26,051 nucleotides of DNA from a virus, in IMG/VR virus record IMGVR_UViG_3300047548_000650, positions 1-26,051 of that record; one strand, 5' to 3'. The translations under genes and the position numbers were made by a program. Below are positions 4,755-25,505 of the stretch, piece after piece. How positions within the stretch are numbered: the stretch's first letter is position 1; each line of letters starts with the position of its first letter. The notes below the pieces were generated by a model. That model made no database searches. It worked only from the letters and a program-made list of their open reading frames with translations, and was not told the DNA's origin.

Positions 4755-6143
4755 TTAAAATCTAGCAGTCCTTTTAAAGACCTGAATTATCTTGTCCCCG
4801 ATACGCTCCGCAACACTGTCATCAAGATACGTTCCTCCATTCATATTGATTGTCAGGTTAACACCTCCTGCACCTGCCATTTTGTAATTAGGTGTGATTG
4901 AGCCGTTGGATGACGGGGTAAATAGTTCAGGCCCCTTTTCACCTACCATATATGATTGCCCTAACTGCACACCTCCTCCTGTTGCCTTGCCCTTGAACCA
5001 GTCAGACAGTTTCTCACCTGCTTTCTTTGCAAGCCCAAGACCGCTTGCCTTAAGAAATAAGTCTATTACTGACTGCAAAGCCCTTTTTAATGAGGCTATT
5101 GGGTTATCTATAATGTATGTAAATGTTTCAGTAAACATCGCTTTTAGCCCTCCAAGAACTAAGTCCATATCGTTCTGCAAGATTTTTATTGACTCGTTCA
5201 GTGCGTATATTGTTGCCGTAAACGCCGCCACAATACCGATGACTGCAAGAACAGGAGTGCTAAGCAAAGCAAATCCAGCAGTGATGGCAGGTATGGCAAG
5301 ACCAAGCAACCCGAGCGCAACAAGCAAAGCGGATATTCCTGCTGTAATTGCCAAGATTGTAACAACAAGCCTAGGGTTTTCCTCTGTAAATGTAGCCACT
5401 GTCTGAATTACTGGAAGCATTGTGTTTGCAAGAGCAAGGAGAGCAGGTTGCAAAGACTTTCCTATGCTTTCTACAATGTCGCCAAATGAACCTTTAAGCT
5501 GTCCAAGTGACTTGTCATATCCTGCAACAGTGTCTGTTGTTTCTCGTAGGTTCTGGTTAAATCCCTCGATGATTGTTGCAACCTTCTGCTGTTCAGTACC
5601 TGTATTGATGAGTTCCTGCTGGTGTTCCGTGAAGCGAATACCCATTTTAGACAGCATGCCGAACTCTCCTCGTAATGCCTTTGCCATAATGTTAGCGCTT
5701 GATATGTAACTGTCCGCACCAGCCGTCACACCGTCCTGATTGATTGTAAGGTCTGCAAGCGATTTGGTAAGGTCAATGACTGATTGTGACTGAAGACCGA
5801 ACGTGGATAGCTGGGCTACTCCTGCATTAAGAGCATCCGCATCTACTCCTGCCTTTTTTTGAAGTGCATTAGTAATCTCATTGACTGCTTTTACCTGCTC
5901 TTTTGTCCCCTTTGAAACCTGTATGATTGCGTGTTCAAGTTGTCTTTGTGACCGCTCGCTCTCCGCATATGCTTTTACGGACACTCCTACAACAGTAGCA
6001 ATAGCACCAAGCCCGACTGTTCCTGCTGTTGCCATGTTCTTAAAGCCTTGCTCATTGTCTTTTAGAGTTCGATTAAGACCCTGCAAAGTTTTCTCTGCCT
6101 CGTTCTTTGCCTTTATTACGATTTGCAAAACTTTTTCGTTCAT
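4755..6143 (-). CDS. Tape measure protein, short
   Basis: 462 residues. A long helical N-terminus (IVIKAKNEAEKTLQGLNRTL) is followed by the MCP-signal-like tail region seen in TMPs (QLEHAIIQVSKGTKEQVKAV, ALQKKAGVDADALNAG). Hydrophobic segments lie near residues 258-320 (LVVTILAITAGISALLVALG and VLAVIGIVAAFTATIYAL). A Gly-rich C-terminus carries the frequent TMP motif GLAKKAGEKLSDWFKG and VGEKGPELFTPSSNG. At about 0.15 nm per residue the length predicts a tail near 70 nm, which is short for a siphovirus. ATG lies one base after the stop of the frameshifted chaperone. TMPs set tail length and may help DNA cross the host membrane. Confidence 0.88.
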   Translation of the reverse strand: MNEKVLQIVIKAKNEAEKTLQGLNRTLKDNEQGFKNMATAGTVGLGAIATVVGVSVKAYAESERSQRQLEHAIIQVSKGTKEQVKAVNEITNALQKKAGVDADALNAGVAQLSTFGLQSQSVIDLTKSLADLTINQDGVTAGADSYISSANIMAKALRGEFGMLSKMGIRFTEHQQELINTGTEQQKVATIIEGFNQNLRETTDTVAGYDKSLGQLKGSFGDIVESIGKSLQPALLALANTMLPVIQTVATFTEENPRLVVTILAITAGISALLVALGLLGLAIPAITAGFALLSTPVLAVIGIVAAFTATIYALNESIKILQNDMDLVLGGLKAMFTETFTYIIDNPIASLKRALQSVIDLFLKASGLGLAKKAGEKLSDWFKGKATGGGVQLGQSYMVGEKGPELFTPSSNGSITPNYKMAGAGGVNLTINMNGGTYLDDSVAERIGDKIIQVFKRTARF

Positions 6144-16153: not shown

Positions 16154-18190
16154 TTAATCTTTAAAGACCGCAACCGTTGTGCATCTACAATTAACGTGTT
16201 GAGGAGGCTGTGTGTCACCCGATGGGAACTCATCTCCTATCTTTCTAATATTGCCGTCATTTGATAAACACGCATCTGATGTTCTGTCATCTCCTACTGC
16301 AAGCCATTCAACCTCCTCAATACCTGCTTGTTTGTATGCCTGAATAGAACCCTCATTAAGTGATGCTGATACTTCTGTTCGTGCAATTCTTTCTGTTCTG
16401 TAATCATATGCTTGCTGGTATACGTCTGTGATTGTCTGTGCGATAACGTCAAACCCTGCACCCTCATTAAGAGCCTCGTTTATCTTTGTAAGCAAAGCCT
16501 CTCGTGTGGTTTTGTTTATCGTTTCTGCAAAGAACTTAGCACGCTCTTGTATAAACTTTGCTGTGTCTGTGTTATTTGGGTCAAACTCACCTCCTGTCTG
16601 ACTGTCTGCGACCTCCGCTCCCTCCTTTAAGAAAGTCCTGATGTGGGGTGTGATAAGCGATATACCAGTAGCAATAGCCTTTTTCTCGTCAAACAAAACG
16701 TCTTCAACGCCCTTTAATTTGTACTCCTTTGGCTTTAGTCCTGCGTACTCGCTCTTTGCGTTCTCAAGAACCTCCTGTTCCTGCTTTTTAAAATAAGCGT
16801 TAACGTCCTTAATAAGTTCTTTCTCGTTCTTATCGAATCGCTTTACCCATACGTCCTTTACCACTTCTTTCTGACTTGCTGTCAGTTTTCTGTAAGTAAT
16901 CTCCTTTTTAGGAAGACGTGCCACAAAGTCATCAATAGTCTTATTGATTGTGTTGTGTTTACTTACCCGTACTGCCTTTACTTGTGTCACAGAGTCTTGT
17001 GGTGCATCAGAAAACGGCCCGTAAAACACATCTCCCTGCTCTGATTCGGTAAGACCCTCCTTTCGTCTGATGTCGTTTCGTGTAAGCCACTTGTTGATTC
17101 CTAGTGAGTAGGCGTTAATCGTAGCCATTCTGTCATCTGGTACAGGGTTCTCAAAATCAAATACAAGGTCAAGGTCAAATTCTGGCAACAGGTATTCGTT
17201 AAGCACAGTGACAAATCGCTCCATAAGCGGTCGCACAGTTCTCTTTGCAAAGACATAATCAGAAGCCTCTGCGTTTGCCCTGTTAACATCATCTGTAATA
17301 CCCACAACCGTCTTAGGTACTCTGAACAACGACAGTATCTCATCCCGTGAGAACGTTCGCTGTGCAATAAAGTCCATATCCTTTTGTGTCTTTGATATGT
17401 CTTGCCACTTTAGACCTCCCTCAAGAATAGCTGGCTTGCCGTTGTTTCGTGAACCCCTATAGGTCTGCTCCCACTGCTCCTTAAGCCTCTTAAACTCATC
17501 ATCTCCAAGCACCTGCTCCGTAGTAAGCACCCCGTCAGGTCTTGCGCTATTTTTAAAGAATGAGTAGTTCCAATTTCGAGCCTCATTATCTGTTTCAATA
17601 GCCCACAATGAAGCCTCAACCACGCCCATTCCCTTGTGCGGTCTTGGATAACCACCGTTCGGGTTAAAGTTCTTAAAATGAATGACCTCGCTCTTGTCAA
17701 AGGCAATCTTGTCTTCTTTGTGTCCGTATGTATAGCCCAGAATGATCAATGGGTTATCTTTATCTAGTATGATATTGACCTTTTCAGGTGATAGAAGATA
17801 AATCTCTCGTATTTTCCCCTTGCCCTCATTGTCACGAGCAAGATACCAGTAGGCATTTCCCGTAAGGTCAAGCATAGCCTGTGTACCAAAAAACAATTCA
17901 TACTTTGTTGTGTTCGGGTTAACGTCGTTCAAAAGCGTCATTACCTCATTATTTTCTACAATGTCACCTGACTTCTTGCTCTTAAGTATCAAATGTATGC
18001 TAGCAACCTCCTCTGCTCGTGCAGTCACGCACGCAAATACCCAGTTCTTGTACTCTTTAAAGTAAGTGCCGTCATCTCTTTGGTTAGGCAGGTTATGTCT
18101 TGCACCGTTAATCATTGATGACACAGTATTGATAATTGGTAACTTGATTCCTTTCTCCTCCCTGTTAAGTAGTTTGTTTATAAAATCCAT
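16154..18190 (-). CDS. Portal protein fused to MuF-like minor head domain
   Basis: 678 residues. Residues about 30-410 match HK97-type portals: [78 protein letters not shown] and [18 protein letters not shown]. After a helical linker, the last ~200 residues match Phage_Mu_[21 protein letters not shown], then [18 protein letters not shown] and [15 protein letters not shown]. Portals are usually near 400-450 residues and MuF is usually the next gene, so this is a fusion. The portal dodecamer forms the DNA channel; MuF-like domains enter the head interior. I chose ATG 18190, next to a TATAAT box; a GTG at 18235 is in frame but lies within the promoter. Confidence 0.9.
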
Positions 18191-18225
18191 ACCGTTATTA
18201 TACAACAATCCTTTTATAGTGTCTG
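18191..18225 (-). promoter_or_regulatory. Leaderless promoter of the portal gene
   Basis: Minus strand CAGACA, 17 bases, TATAAT, 6 bases (AACGGT), ATG 18190. The motif TATAATAACGGTATG is nearly identical to that at 12925 (TATAATAACGGCATG). Confidence 0.7.
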
Positions 18226-18239
18226 TAGCCAACACGCCC

Positions 18240-18594
18240 TATCCTTGCATAACAAGGGTTTCGCTTTTATTTGTTCAACAAAATACAGTTAGTTCCTGAC
18301 CCTTGCCCTCATAGTAGTGAGTTAGTATTACATCAGATGTCCTGTAAAGTCTTGTGTGCTAATGCAAGTCCTCGTTGTAGGCATAAACACAGAGCGAGGA
18401 TTTTAATCAACACACAAACACTTGGTAATTATTGCAGAAATGTTTAAAGACTAGTTACCGTTTCCTGAAAAGTCTGTCGTTGAATCTGTAACAGAAAACA
18501 CCCCCTAAGTGATTAGAGAGTGTTCGCTGGGTGCTTCAAACCACAACTGAATACTTGATAACAAATATGCAAATGTGGTTTTAGTTTGAAGCAT
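18240..18594 (-). ncRNA. Candidate large structured RNA between terminase and portal
   Basis: No gene of normal size is found between 18643 and 18191. On the minus strand a transcript expected to start near 18594 would fold strongly. P1 (18593-18532): TGCTTCAAA/TTTGAAGCA, then CCACA/TGTGG, then ATATTTG-TTAT-CAAGTAT. P2 (18524-18497): 12 continuous pairs, AACACTCTCTAA-TCAC-TTAGGGGGTGTT. P3 (18418-18406 with 18363-18351): 13 continuous pairs, enclosing TCCTCG (18400-18395) / CGAGGA (18374-18369). Further stems include CAAGGGT/ACCCTTG near 18308-18260. G-U pairs in P1, P2 and P3 hold only for the minus strand, which fixes the sense. The 3' end is unknown; 18240 is a guess just before the portal promoter. 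Family unknown; a long untranslated leader is the alternative. Pairing is read by eye, without energy calculation. Confidence 0.6.
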
Positions 18595-18609
18595 ACTTAT
18601 AGTATAACA
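18595..18609 (-). promoter_or_regulatory. Extended -10 promoter of the structured RNA
   Basis: Minus strand TGTTATACT, with TTGCTT 18 bases before the -10. The predicted start point is 18594, exactly at the base of hairpin P1. Spacing to an ATG (18594) is 6 bases, the same as at the leaderless genes. Confidence 0.6.
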
Positions 18610-18643
18610 TATTTGAAATAAAACAAGCAAGTTCTCCTAAAGC

Positions 18644-19792
18644 CTACAGTGTCCTTATGTTAGGTCGTGTCGCCTTGCCAGCTAAGTATGTGTGAATGGC
18701 GTACCTAGTCGCACACAAGGCATCGTCCATTACTCTTACTGGCTCATCAAGTATCTTGTTGTCTGCGGTCGTCTTCCATGAGTAACTTCTGTACTCCTTT
18801 AAAAGATTAAGGCTGTCTTTAGTAACATATATCTTCTTGCTCTTGAGTGTGTCGATTCCTTTCTTGACATCTTTATCAGATGAGTGTGCATTAAAACCTG
18901 CCCTGCGTATCTCCTCGATTCTCGCTGGTTCTGCACTATCACAAAACAAGAACTTGCCCTTTTGTATGCCAAGTTCCCTCATACGCTCTATAACGTCCAA
19001 ATTGGTCAATCCTGACGAGTAAATCACTTCACGCACATAATACGCATCATCGTACTCTCGCACCTCTACGAGGGCGGTAGGGTGGTTATAGCCGAAGTCT
19101 AGTCCGTATATCGTTTCCCCTACCTCTGGCAACTCATCACACAGCTCAAAATGGTTGTAGATGCGAGCCGAGGCTATTCCAAACAGCCCAAGACCATAAA
19201 TGCGCCACAAGTTAGGGTCTGCATCTTTAAGCCGTTCAATTTCCTGTATTGTTTCCTTATTTAAAAACGGGTTGTCTTTGTATGTTGATTTAAACACCTC
19301 AACGTCATCTCGTACCTTGATTTTCTCCTCAATCCAGTGGTCTTCTGCATGAGAAGGGTTATAGTCCATGTAAATACGCCCTGTGGTTCTCATTGATAAC
19401 TGTACAAAGTCGTTGTAAGTCAGTTCGTTTGCCTCGTTCATAAACAGGTACTTTCTCTTACGACCCTTGACCTTTGAGTAGTCGTCCACTGATATAAACT
19501 CAATCTCGTTGCCGTGCAAAAAGTAACTGTTAATGGACTTGTTATGAAATGCCTCATCATAAATGCCGTACTTATCCAAGACCTCAAAAAAGTCTTTCAT
19601 GGCGGTTGCTTTTAAAGAGGGCAGGGTCTTTCGCACGATAGTAAACACCTCTCCTTTTTCCTGTAATGCAAGTTGTATCAATACCTGAATGGTTGAGTAC
19701 GTCTTTGAGGAACGGCTTGACCCCTCATTTATGAAGATACGTTTACTGCTCTGTATTGTCTTGTGAAATATCGGCGTTACTTTGACTTTCAT
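18644..19792 (-). CDS. terL: Terminase large subunit
   Basis: 382 residues, the Terminase_3/PBSX type. Walker A is GSSRSSKT at 24-31, with Ser where many have Gly before Lys; Walker B is YLFMNE at 115-120. The ATPase also has RKTLPSLKATAMKDF at 54-68 and the motif III-like RIYMDYNPSH at 139-148. The nuclease domain shows Asp232 in GLDFGYNHPTA, Asp285 in FCDSAEPARI and Asp356/357 in VMDDALCATRYAIH, the expected metal-binding triad. It packages DNA into the prohead through the portal. The start overlaps the terS end by 50 bases; no later ATG would keep the Walker A region intact. The stop is 50 bases before the candidate RNA's start. Confidence 0.95.
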   Translation of the reverse strand: MKVKVTPIFHKTIQSSKRIFINEGSSRSSKTYSTIQVLIQLALQEKGEVFTIVRKTLPSLKATAMKDFFEVLDKYGIYDEAFHNKSINSYFLHGNEIEFISVDDYSKVKGRKRKYLFMNEANELTYNDFVQLSMRTTGRIYMDYNPSHAEDHWIEEKIKVRDDVEVFKSTYKDNPFLNKETIQEIERLKDADPNLWRIYGLGLFGIASARIYNHFELCDELPEVGETIYGLDFGYNHPTALVEVREYDDAYYVREVIYSSGLTNLDVIERMRELGIQKGKFLFCDSAEPARIEEIRRAGFNAHSSDKDVKKGIDTLKSKKIYVTKDSLNLLKEYRSYSWKTTADNKILDEPVRVMDDALCATRYAIHTYLAGKATRPNIRTL

Positions 19793-23112: not shown

Positions 23113-24123
23113 TTATCTCAAAAACCATTGCTTCTCAACCTCCTTTGCTATTCCGTAAATCATGAGAGGGGGAACGGACATTCCTATGAGGTATTTTGGG
23201 TCAACGTTCATGTAGTCATAATCAGTCGGAAACGTGCCGCATAGGGAATACACCTGGTTTGAAAGCTCATAGGGTTCGTATGGGTGGCAAATCTTGCCAA
23301 CGCTTGCTGACGTTATCGTGTAAAGCACCGATTCTGAGCTTGCCTTCTTGGTATTAAAAAAACTTCCTTTAGGATGGACTTGTCCGAACGAGCCACTTAG
23401 GTTCTGCATCTTGTCATACCATTTCCTATATGCTGGAGTAAGCGGTTTGCCCTTGTGCTTCTCAGTCCTCTTAAAGACTTCCCTTAATGGTATTGGCTTT
23501 TCATTAAAGCTCAACGTAATCTTGGGATAGTTTAGGTCATTCCTACTACACACGAAGAACACTCGTTCCCTTTTCTGCGGGACACCCATGGTCGCCCCGT
23601 TTAGAAGAAACAGTTGAACTCGATACCCTATCGCCTCAAGCCTTTTCTTGACCATCACAAGATACCCCTTTGCGTTTCCTACCAGCATGCCCTTGACGTT
23701 TTCCGCGATGATAACTTTTGGCCTAAGTCTTTCGGCGACCGCAATGAAGTCAAAGAACAGGTCGTCAAGAACCTGCTCGCTCTGCCCTTCCCTGAACTTC
23801 TTGAGCTTTCCCCAATTCTCGTCCCTCTTTCCCGCCGTCGAGAATGTGGAGCACGGAGGGGAGCCATCAAGAATATCTAATCCAAATAATTCCTCTGGCA
23901 AATCCATCGTTATCAGGTCCTTTATTGGAGCCTGAATATATATCTTTGGATTATGGTTGTGCTTATAAACCTTGGCCATCTCTGGGTCTATGTCGTTTGC
24001 CCCGATAACGTCAAATCCCGCGAGCTTGTACCCCATAGTCGAGCCTCCTCCGCACGCAAATGTCGTAAACACCTTCAGGCCGTTTCCTTTTGGATATTCG
24101 CTCTTTGACCACTTGTAATCCAT
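23113..24123 (-). CDS. C5-cytosine DNA methyltransferase
   Basis: 336 residues. Motif I TFACGGGSTMGYKLAGF (21-37), motif IV with the catalytic cysteine in DGSPPCSTFS (86-95, Cys91), motif VI ENV (141-143), motif VIII QKRERVFF (183-190), and motif X near the end (IGMSVPPLMIYGIAKEV). The target recognition region lies between about 215 and 300. It methylates cytosine C5 in DNA; the site cannot be read from sequence. No linked restriction enzyme of known type is seen, so it probably shields phage DNA from host enzymes. ATG three bases after the ParB-like gene's TAG. Confidence 0.93.
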   Translation of the reverse strand: MDYKWSKSEYPKGNGLKVFTTFACGGGSTMGYKLAGFDVIGANDIDPEMAKVYKHNHNPKIYIQAPIKDLITMDLPEELFGLDILDGSPPCSTFSTAGKRDENWGKLKKFREGQSEQVLDDLFFDFIAVAERLRPKVIIAENVKGMLVGNAKGYLVMVKKRLEAIGYRVQLFLLNGATMGVPQKRERVFFVCSRNDLNYPKITLSFNEKPIPLREVFKRTEKHKGKPLTPAYRKWYDKMQNLSGSFGQVHPKGSFFNTKKASSESVLYTITSASVGKICHPYEPYELSNQVYSLCGTFPTDYDYMNVDPKYLIGMSVPPLMIYGIAKEVEKQWFLR

Positions 24124-24126
24124 ATG

Positions 24127-24582
24127 CTAGAACTTGAATCCGCACTTAGGGCACTCATGCTCGAGGGTTCCCTCAACCCCATCAACGTCAATCTCCTTGT
24201 TCTTGTCATCAAAGTCCTCCTCAATGCCAAAGTTCTTAAGGTCGAGTCCCCATTCTTGAAGCTCGTTTATGCCGTAATCAGCACCAAGCATCTCATAATC
24301 CCATACTCCGTAAGACAGGTTGTCCTTGACCACGAACTGCCTTTTCTGCTCCTCCGTCCAATCAACGATTGTCACTGGTACTTCCTTAATGCCTACCTTC
24401 TCAAGCGCCTTAAGTCTCATGTTGCCTCCGATGACCACGTAGTCCCTGTCCACGATAAGCGGGCGTGCGTCAAGCATCTCTGGGAACTCCCTGATGCTGT
24501 TGACCAGTTTCTCGAACATGTCCTCGTTAATCTTTCGAGGGTTCCTAGGATTCTCCTTAATCAGCTTGATGTCTACTTGCAT
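24127..24582 (-). CDS. ParB-like nuclease-domain protein
   Basis: 151 residues. ParB N-terminal-type domain: NPRNPRKINEDMFEKLVNSI (11-30), PLIVDRDYVVIGGNMRLKAL (41-60), where GGNMR takes the place of the GERR/GHRR motif, then EVPVTIVDWTEEQKRQF and VKDNLSYGVWDYEMLGADYG. This version with GNMR and 'kDN.s.G.WD' is often found next to or fused to phage DNA methyltransferases. The C-terminal HECPKCGFKF is half of a zinc ribbon. It lies immediately before the C5 methyltransferase, so a joint role in modification or target choice is likely but unproved. Confidence 0.85.
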   Translation of the reverse strand: MQVDIKLIKENPRNPRKINEDMFEKLVNSIREFPEMLDARPLIVDRDYVVIGGNMRLKALEKVGIKEVPVTIVDWTEEQKRQFVVKDNLSYGVWDYEMLGADYGINELQEWGLDLKNFGIEEDFDDKNKEIDVDGVEGTLEHECPKCGFKF

Positions 24583-24800
24583 AGTGTCTTTCTTAGTTCA
24601 CTGTTAATGGTAAATCTCATACGCTTTGAAAACACTGGTGAGCCTTCCTTGTTTCTGAATCCGCAGAACGTCTTGCCCTTTCTTCGTGGGAGCAGTTCAA
24701 ATACTCCCTTTGTGGGTACTTCAAGCCTTCCTGTATTGCTCAAATGCCTTTCAATTATGCCAAAGGCGGCGTTCATTATGTCTGTTTCATTTTGGTTCAT
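24573..24800 (-). CDS. Small unknown protein
   Basis: 75 residues: MNQNETDIMNAAFGIIERHL, then NTGRLEVPTKGVFELLPRRK and GKTFCGFRNKEGSPVFSKRM. The first 20 residues are an amphipathic helix, the rest basic and beta. It overlaps the nuclease gene by ATGA and the ParB-like gene by 10 bases, hence is clearly part of one operon. No family recognised. Confidence 0.65.
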   Translation of the reverse strand: MNQNETDIMNAAFGIIERHLSNTGRLEVPTKGVFELLPRRKGKTFCGFRNKEGSPVFSKRMRFTINSELRKTLCK

Positions 24801-25126
24801 AGTCCTATGTTTATAACGTCATCCAACTTCCTGATAATGTAATACTCGCACCCAATGTCCTCGCATCGTGCTTGGAACTTTTTTTGATCTTCTGATAAAA
24901 CCCCTCTGGTTGCCTTTATTTCTAGGAACACCGCATATCCTCCTTCTGTCAGTACGATTACGTCTGGCACGCCATTTAGAGCGTATTTTGGTTTTTTCCT
25001 AAACGTCTTCTTCTTTGGGTCGTACACACCTACGGAGTTTTGCCTCCAAAAGAAGTGCTTTTTGCGTGCAAGATAGTCGCATACTGTGTTTTGTATTTCC
25101 CTTTCTGGTGTGCGTATTAGTTGCAT
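24797..25126 (-). CDS. VRR-NUC domain nuclease
   Basis: 109 residues from ATG 25126. PD-(D/E)XK-type VRR-NUC: Glu10 in TPEREIQNTVCDYL, GVPDVIVL at 52-59 with catalytic Asp55, FLEIKATRG with Glu69 and Lys71, and Gln81 in LSEDQKKFQ. The stand-alone small form is common in phages, where it is thought to resolve or trim branched DNA during replication. A TTG at 25162 is in frame but lies in the preceding gene and ahead of a TATAAT box, so ATG is preferred. Ends with ATGA to the next gene. Confidence 0.88.
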   Translation of the reverse strand: MQLIRTPEREIQNTVCDYLARKKHFFWRQNSVGVYDPKKKTFRKKPKYALNGVPDVIVLTEGGYAVFLEIKATRGVLSEDQKKFQARCEDIGCEYYIIRKLDDVINIGL

Positions 25127-25136
25127 TGTTATTATA
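25127..25136 (-). promoter_or_regulatory. Leaderless promoter of the VRR-NUC gene
   Basis: Minus strand TATAATAACAATG: perfect -10 with only 4 bases before the ATG. An alternative -10, TATTAT, is 7 bases away. No clear -35. Confidence 0.5.
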
Positions 25137-25139
25137 ATA

Positions 25140-25505
25140 TCACCTGATGTTTTTAAGCACAACTTTTATGTCGTCATGTATTATTTCTATAAATTCCTTT
25201 ACTCTTTTTTGTTCAATCTTTGGCATGTTGTCTATGTAGTATCTGTTTCTATACAGTGCGGTCAGAGTAAGAAACAGCAAGTCCCTCCTAACCTTTGTTC
25301 CCTTTATGCCAGTTATCCTATTGAAACTGTCTGCTACTGCATGACACTCATGGCACAAGACAATGCCGTTGAATAATGCTTTACTGATTCTTGAATAGAT
25401 ATGGTGTTGAGATAACATTTGATTACTACCACACTTCTGGCAACAGGGCTGTGTGTCTGCCAATACCCATTTTACCCACTGCGAAAAGTTGTTCGTGCCG
25501 CTCAT
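25140..25505 (-). CDS. HNH-like endonuclease
   Basis: 121 residues. Zinc and catalytic residues in the HNH order: Cys22-Cys25 (QPCCQKCGSNQML), His34-His35 (SQHHIYSR), Asn46 (LFNGIVL) and Cys51-Cys54-His55 (CHECHAVADSF). The C-terminal half is helical and basic (KVRRDLLFLTLTALYRNRYY). Could be a nicking or homing enzyme or a terminase-linked HNH, though it is far from terL. It overlaps the preceding gene by ATGA. Confidence 0.78.
   Translation of the reverse strand: MSGTNNFSQWVKWVLADTQPCCQKCGSNQMLSQHHIYSRISKALFNGIVLCHECHAVADSFNRITGIKGTKVRRDLLFLTLTALYRNRYYIDNMPKIEQKRVKEFIEIIHDDIKVVLKNIR

Follow-up and report, generated by a model that had tools for sequence, protein, structure and literature searches.

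ROOL and GOLLD, two structured phage RNAs without an assigned role, are often found near tRNA islands. Phage morons are units inserted where related phages have two genes side by side; they have their own promoter, their own terminator, usually a single coding region, and a base composition unlike that of their neighbours (PMC4378225). In lambdoid prophages, small-RNA genes for the EcOnc anti-sRNAs are known from the moron site (PMC4104026). Leaderless genes preceded by a TAtaaT box are known in bacteria (PMC3160421, PMC12340547).

The locus described here lies between terL and the portal gene in positions 1 to 26,051 of the IMG/VR virus record IMGVR_UViG_3300047548_000650. This whole stretch of 26,051 nucleotides is termed the window. 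All genes of the window, where assigned, are on the minus strand. The terL-portal gap is the largest of the window with 453 nt (compared to 183 nt for the runner-up and a median of 3 nt), in agreement with the first-pass annotation, which had pointed to a gap of about 450 bases in a packed genome. Our best explanation, which we hold tentatively and with slightly less than even confidence, is that the gap contains a moron-like, lineage-specific insert of ~430 bp with its own short transcription unit, whose product is a small, non-coding transcript of about 105 nt. The insert resembles phage morons and the EcOnc genes (PMC4104026) in being extra DNA that separates genes which are neighbours in relatives, and in having a promoter-like site as well as a terminator-like hairpin. 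It differs from them by the lack of a clear coding region, by a marginal terminator, by its terL-portal position, by having no sequence relation shown to them and by being predicted only. The features are:

18644-19792, minus strand: terL, large terminase (Terminase_3), assigned by PHROGs and Pfam
18215-18652, minus strand: segment of ~430 bp inserted relative to relatives, from comparison of terL-portal junctions
18601-18630, minus strand: promoter-like site, TTGCTT (18630-18625), 18-nt spacer, extended -10 TGTTATACT (18609-18601)
18505-18594, minus strand: possible leaderless ORF of 29 codons, MLQTKTTFAYLLSSIQLWFEAPSEHSLIT, ATG 6 nt after the -10
18532-18593, minus strand: hairpin 1, 62 nt, 24 pairs, -24.2 kcal/mol, z -6.2
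18490-18529, minus strand: hairpin 2, continuous 12-bp core (18524-18497) followed by TTCTGTT, z -4.6
18346-18423, minus strand: hairpin 3, 29 pairs including a 13-bp helix and TCCTCG/CGAGGA, z -4.4 alone
18190-18225, minus strand: the portal gene's own leaderless promoter, CAGACA, 17 nt, TATAAT (18202-18197), 6 nt, ATG 18190
16154-18190, minus strand: portal protein with Mu gpF-like C-terminal domain, assigned by PHROGs and Pfam
22106, 20225, 18190, 12925, 12406, 7821, 6665, 3294 and 524, minus strand: leaderless ORF starts with a TATAAT-like box 6 nt upstream

The portal (PF04860) and a Mu gpF-like minor head domain (PF04233) are fused in a single ORF. Elsewhere in the window, genes for a C5 cytosine methylase, a ParB-N protein and a VRR-NUC nuclease are clustered at 23113-25162.

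The terL-portal junction was compared with that of seven relatives whose portals are 61-78% identical (L002-L006, L010, and L011, with L002/L003 and L004/L005 being near duplicates). In all seven, the portal ATG follows the terL stop after ~20-30 nt, no such RNA is present, and the junction is otherwise intact. The spacing is 10 nt in the more distant relatives L014-L016. Since the seven relatives have only this short stretch at the junction, the insert is, judged by this comparison, lineage-specific and not a conserved packaging RNA. A single gain would be the simplest history, because all other loci, even the outgroup L014/L015, are without the segment. In the portal tree, which has little resolution, L002 is nearest to the window. 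An 8-bp near-repeat, ACACT(G/A)TA, was found at both ends of the insert (18645-18652 and 18215-18222) and at no other place in the window. This suggests a target-site duplication in which the end of terL was duplicated on insertion, and proves nothing, because the repeat has eight bases and 2.2 occurrences of ACACTRTA are expected by chance in the window. The GC content of the insert is 0.37 compared to 0.43 for the window, a modest gap that is possible for any non-coding DNA.

The first 108 nt of the predicted transcript region (18595-18488, minus strand) fold with -43.1 kcal/mol compared to -18.7 ± 3.2 kcal/mol for shuffled sequences (z -7.7), and none of 200 shuffles was as good. This region was the most structured among 948 segments of 110 nt taken from both strands. 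The 62-base hairpin, the continuous 12-bp hairpin and the continuous 13-bp helix (18418-18406 with 18363-18351) enclosing TCCTCG/CGAGGA, all described in the first-pass annotation, were recovered at the positions given there. Of the large structured RNA proposed there, the structure was found for the first ~108 nt and for hairpin 3, whereas "large" was not supported, since the 255-nt tail (18490-18236) as a whole gave a z of only -1.1 with 27 of 200 shuffles as good. The proposal that the symmetry reflects RNA of the minus strand rather than DNA gained support. The 18488-18595 fold has a z of -7.7 on the minus strand vs. -4.3 on the plus strand, and the three stems contain nine G-U pairs vs. 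one A-C mismatch. The G-U excess favours RNA of the minus strand, as support and not as proof, because the folding program favours G-U.

The extended -10 was present as claimed, and its TATACT is arranged like the -10 of the phage's leaderless promoters. Transcription is predicted to start at A18594, 1 nt before hairpin 1, which fits the earlier placement of the start point at the base of the 62-base hairpin. The -35 is poor (three of six matches), and the site is absent from the list returned by a promoter scan of the window. The promoter of its own that was proposed for the RNA is thus upheld as a promoter-like site directly followed by strong strand-specific structure, but with these two points against it. 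A terminator scan at the classical cut-off (d = 0) gave no site on either strand, and a lower cut-off was used thereafter. Among the terminator-like sites then returned for the two strands of the window, hairpin 2 with its tail scored best (d -5.2, compared to -13.1 for the next best on the plus strand and -21.2 on the minus strand), and ten strand shuffles gave a d of at most -7.2. Termination at hairpin 2 is plausible, a grading set by a d below the classical cut-off.

The insertion pattern, the strong strand-specific structure and the promoter-like and terminator-like sequences are plain in the DNA. That the insert is transcribed, and that the transcript ends near 18490, we infer from them. 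Initiated from the extended -10 promoter at about A18594, transcription would proceed through the 62-nt hairpin and end at the 12-bp terminator-like hairpin. The product would be a small non-coding RNA of ~105 nt, and read-through would give a longer form with hairpin 3. Downstream, the portal gene would retain its own leaderless promoter, a counterpart of which was found in the relatives without the insert. There the TATAAT is located exactly 6 nt upstream of the portal ATG in L002/L003, L010, and L011, 7 nt upstream in L004/L005 and 10 nt upstream in L006. The RNA could have RNAs or proteins of the host or the phage as its targets in trans, or it could separate terL and portal transcription. 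A search for antisense targets among the phage start regions gave nothing above noise. If transcribed, the insert would be a small-RNA gene that an uncultured phage acquired as one discrete unit, and the near relatives without it would be natural controls.

DNA searches found no homologue of the insert in 50,697 phage records (one 38-nt chance match) or in 72,556 plasmids, and neither the window nor the records searched gave a second copy. The Rfam search that had been proposed for ROOL, GOLLD and phi29 pRNA was run and gave no family at gathering score, and so none of these three. A permissive Rfam search of 18150-18680 returned chance matches only (a nematode snoRNA and a microRNA). DNA and covariance-model searches of the related contigs, which are fragments, did not find the RNA elsewhere in them. 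Single-sequence covariance models run over the related loci returned self-matches, their reverse strands and a chance stem in L179 only, and DNA patterns of hairpins 1, 2, and 3 found no true relative in viral contigs. L178-L180 have the basal stem in common by chance, and the copies of L179 and L180 are within coding sequence. L171/L173 are from GC-rich phages, and the 21 nt that they have in common close an unrelated ORF. The stretches after terL of the distant phages L086-L088, L052, L033, L054, and L041 were folded, and none was like the insert; L086 and L052 have strong hairpins after terL that appear to be ordinary terminators. In the more distant relative L007 a short hairpin unit occurs twice in tandem directly after terL (5004-5077, AAAACAGCTTCTTACAAATGGTTTTAAGAAGC).

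A tRNA search found no tRNA near the insert or anywhere in the window. The insert is like ROOL and GOLLD (PMC12286853) in being a structured phage RNA without assigned role, but differs by having no Rfam match, no tRNA island and a much shorter significant structure, and the parallel to these RNAs drawn by the first-pass annotation was rejected.

In weighing the small-RNA insert we counted for it the A-C/G-U ratio, the z of -7.7, the absence in relatives, the best terminator-like site, the buried AUG and the lower GC content. Counted against it were the lack of a homologue, the d below cut-off, the poor -35, the lack of a convincing antisense target and an ATG at +1 with an open frame. Taken together, the orphan moron-like insert is real and unusual and probably makes a small hairpin RNA. 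It is possible, though less likely than not, that it represents an RNA-only moron, i.e., a recently acquired self-contained unit whose cargo is a new orphan family of structured small RNA made beside the late head genes. Compared with the definition of a moron, the insert separates two genes that are neighbours in related phages; its promoter-like site has an extended -10 as elsewhere in the phage but a poor -35, its terminator-like hairpin is the best site of the window but below the classical cut-off, and its single candidate coding region is the 29-codon ORF with ambiguous codon usage. That the insert works like a moron is therefore a better claim than membership of the class, since promoter, terminator and coding region are each ambiguous.

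The first-pass annotation had read the -10 as an RNA promoter alone and missed the ATG 6 nt on, which is the spacing of the phage's leaderless genes. The insert could instead carry a leaderless gene for a microprotein or leader peptide. The A of ATG 18594 would be the first base of the transcript, 29 codons would be translated, and the stop codon would lie inside hairpin 2, which could attenuate or terminate. This is the foremost rival, and we consider it rather doubtful. The minus strand has 12 instances of a -10 box with an ATG at 6 nt, compared to 1.7 expected, and the plus strand has none. Nine of the other 11 sites are ORF starts, and so the phage very probably uses leaderless genes; the remaining two are pattern matches inside genes, i.e., false positives, and weaken the argument for the ORF. 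A Shine-Dalgarno core was found for only four of 39 genes, which also speaks for the peptide. The insert's TGT-TATACT, 6 nt and ATG are like the leaderless genes described in bacteria (PMC3160421, PMC12340547) and have the spacing of the nine ORF starts and of several of the relatives' portals, but its ORF has just 29 codons, a start codon in a strong hairpin and ambiguous codon usage. The first 66 nt of the ORF fold with -24.2 kcal/mol, with two bases of the start codon, U and G, being paired, compared to -1.9 to -10.1 kcal/mol for the nine other leaderless starts. Early ribosome loading might still occur, because the first 40 nt are open (-1.7 kcal/mol). The codon score of -2.2 is intermediate between that of genes (6.2 ± 4.2) and that of off-frame sequence (-7.7 ± 4.1) and slightly against coding, and the ORF has no protein relative in the phage collection. 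In our judgment the RNA outweighs the peptide by about two to one. As a caution, a -10 box with an ATG 6 nt on should be considered a possible leaderless gene before it is taken for an RNA promoter.

The leaderless enrichment together with the few Shine-Dalgarno cores points to a host favouring leaderless mRNA. A search of genome_contigs for relatives that could assign the host found none.

In the other main rival, the hairpins would serve only as punctuation in cis, ending or processing terL transcripts and insulating the portal promoter, with the upstream promoter-like site being incidental. The terminator-like quality of hairpin 2 and the portal gene's own promoter, likewise present in relatives, agree with this. 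We nevertheless regard it as unlikely, as the relatives manage without any such structure and hairpin 1, which is no terminator, has its base exactly where the upstream promoter is predicted to initiate.

That the segment is a decayed insertion or a non-autonomous mobile element, with dyads that served DNA mobility, is improbable. The near-repeat at both ends, the restriction to one lineage and the lack of a clear coding region are in line with such an origin, but no second copy was found, the G-U to A-C ratio is 9:1 and the insert has no long terminal inverted repeats.

A phi29-like packaging or virion RNA, as the first-pass annotation had suggested, is largely refuted and most improbable: the location between terL and portal genes is the sole point for it, against which stand the seven relatives having the same motor genes without the RNA, the lack of an Rfam pRNA match, a large terminase of the Terminase_3 family rather than a phi29 gp16-type ATPase, and the location of pRNA genes elsewhere in phi29-like phages (PMC6266182), because of which the gene position of the insert provides no analogy to phi29. 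The likeness to phi29 pRNA is that of a small structured phage RNA and nothing beyond. A packaging RNA would have been important, but the comparison with relatives speaks against it.

In L004 (1580-2312) and L005, whose protein is identical, terL contains an intein-like insertion that starts with CFTADTIITVPIGE, ends with FFLANGVVVKN before C and has a weak match to an intein model. A different, overlapping frame of the insertion encodes an HNH_3 endonuclease (176-179 aa, E 9e-17), and the intein-like and HNH_3 frames are both open over the same ~530 nt.
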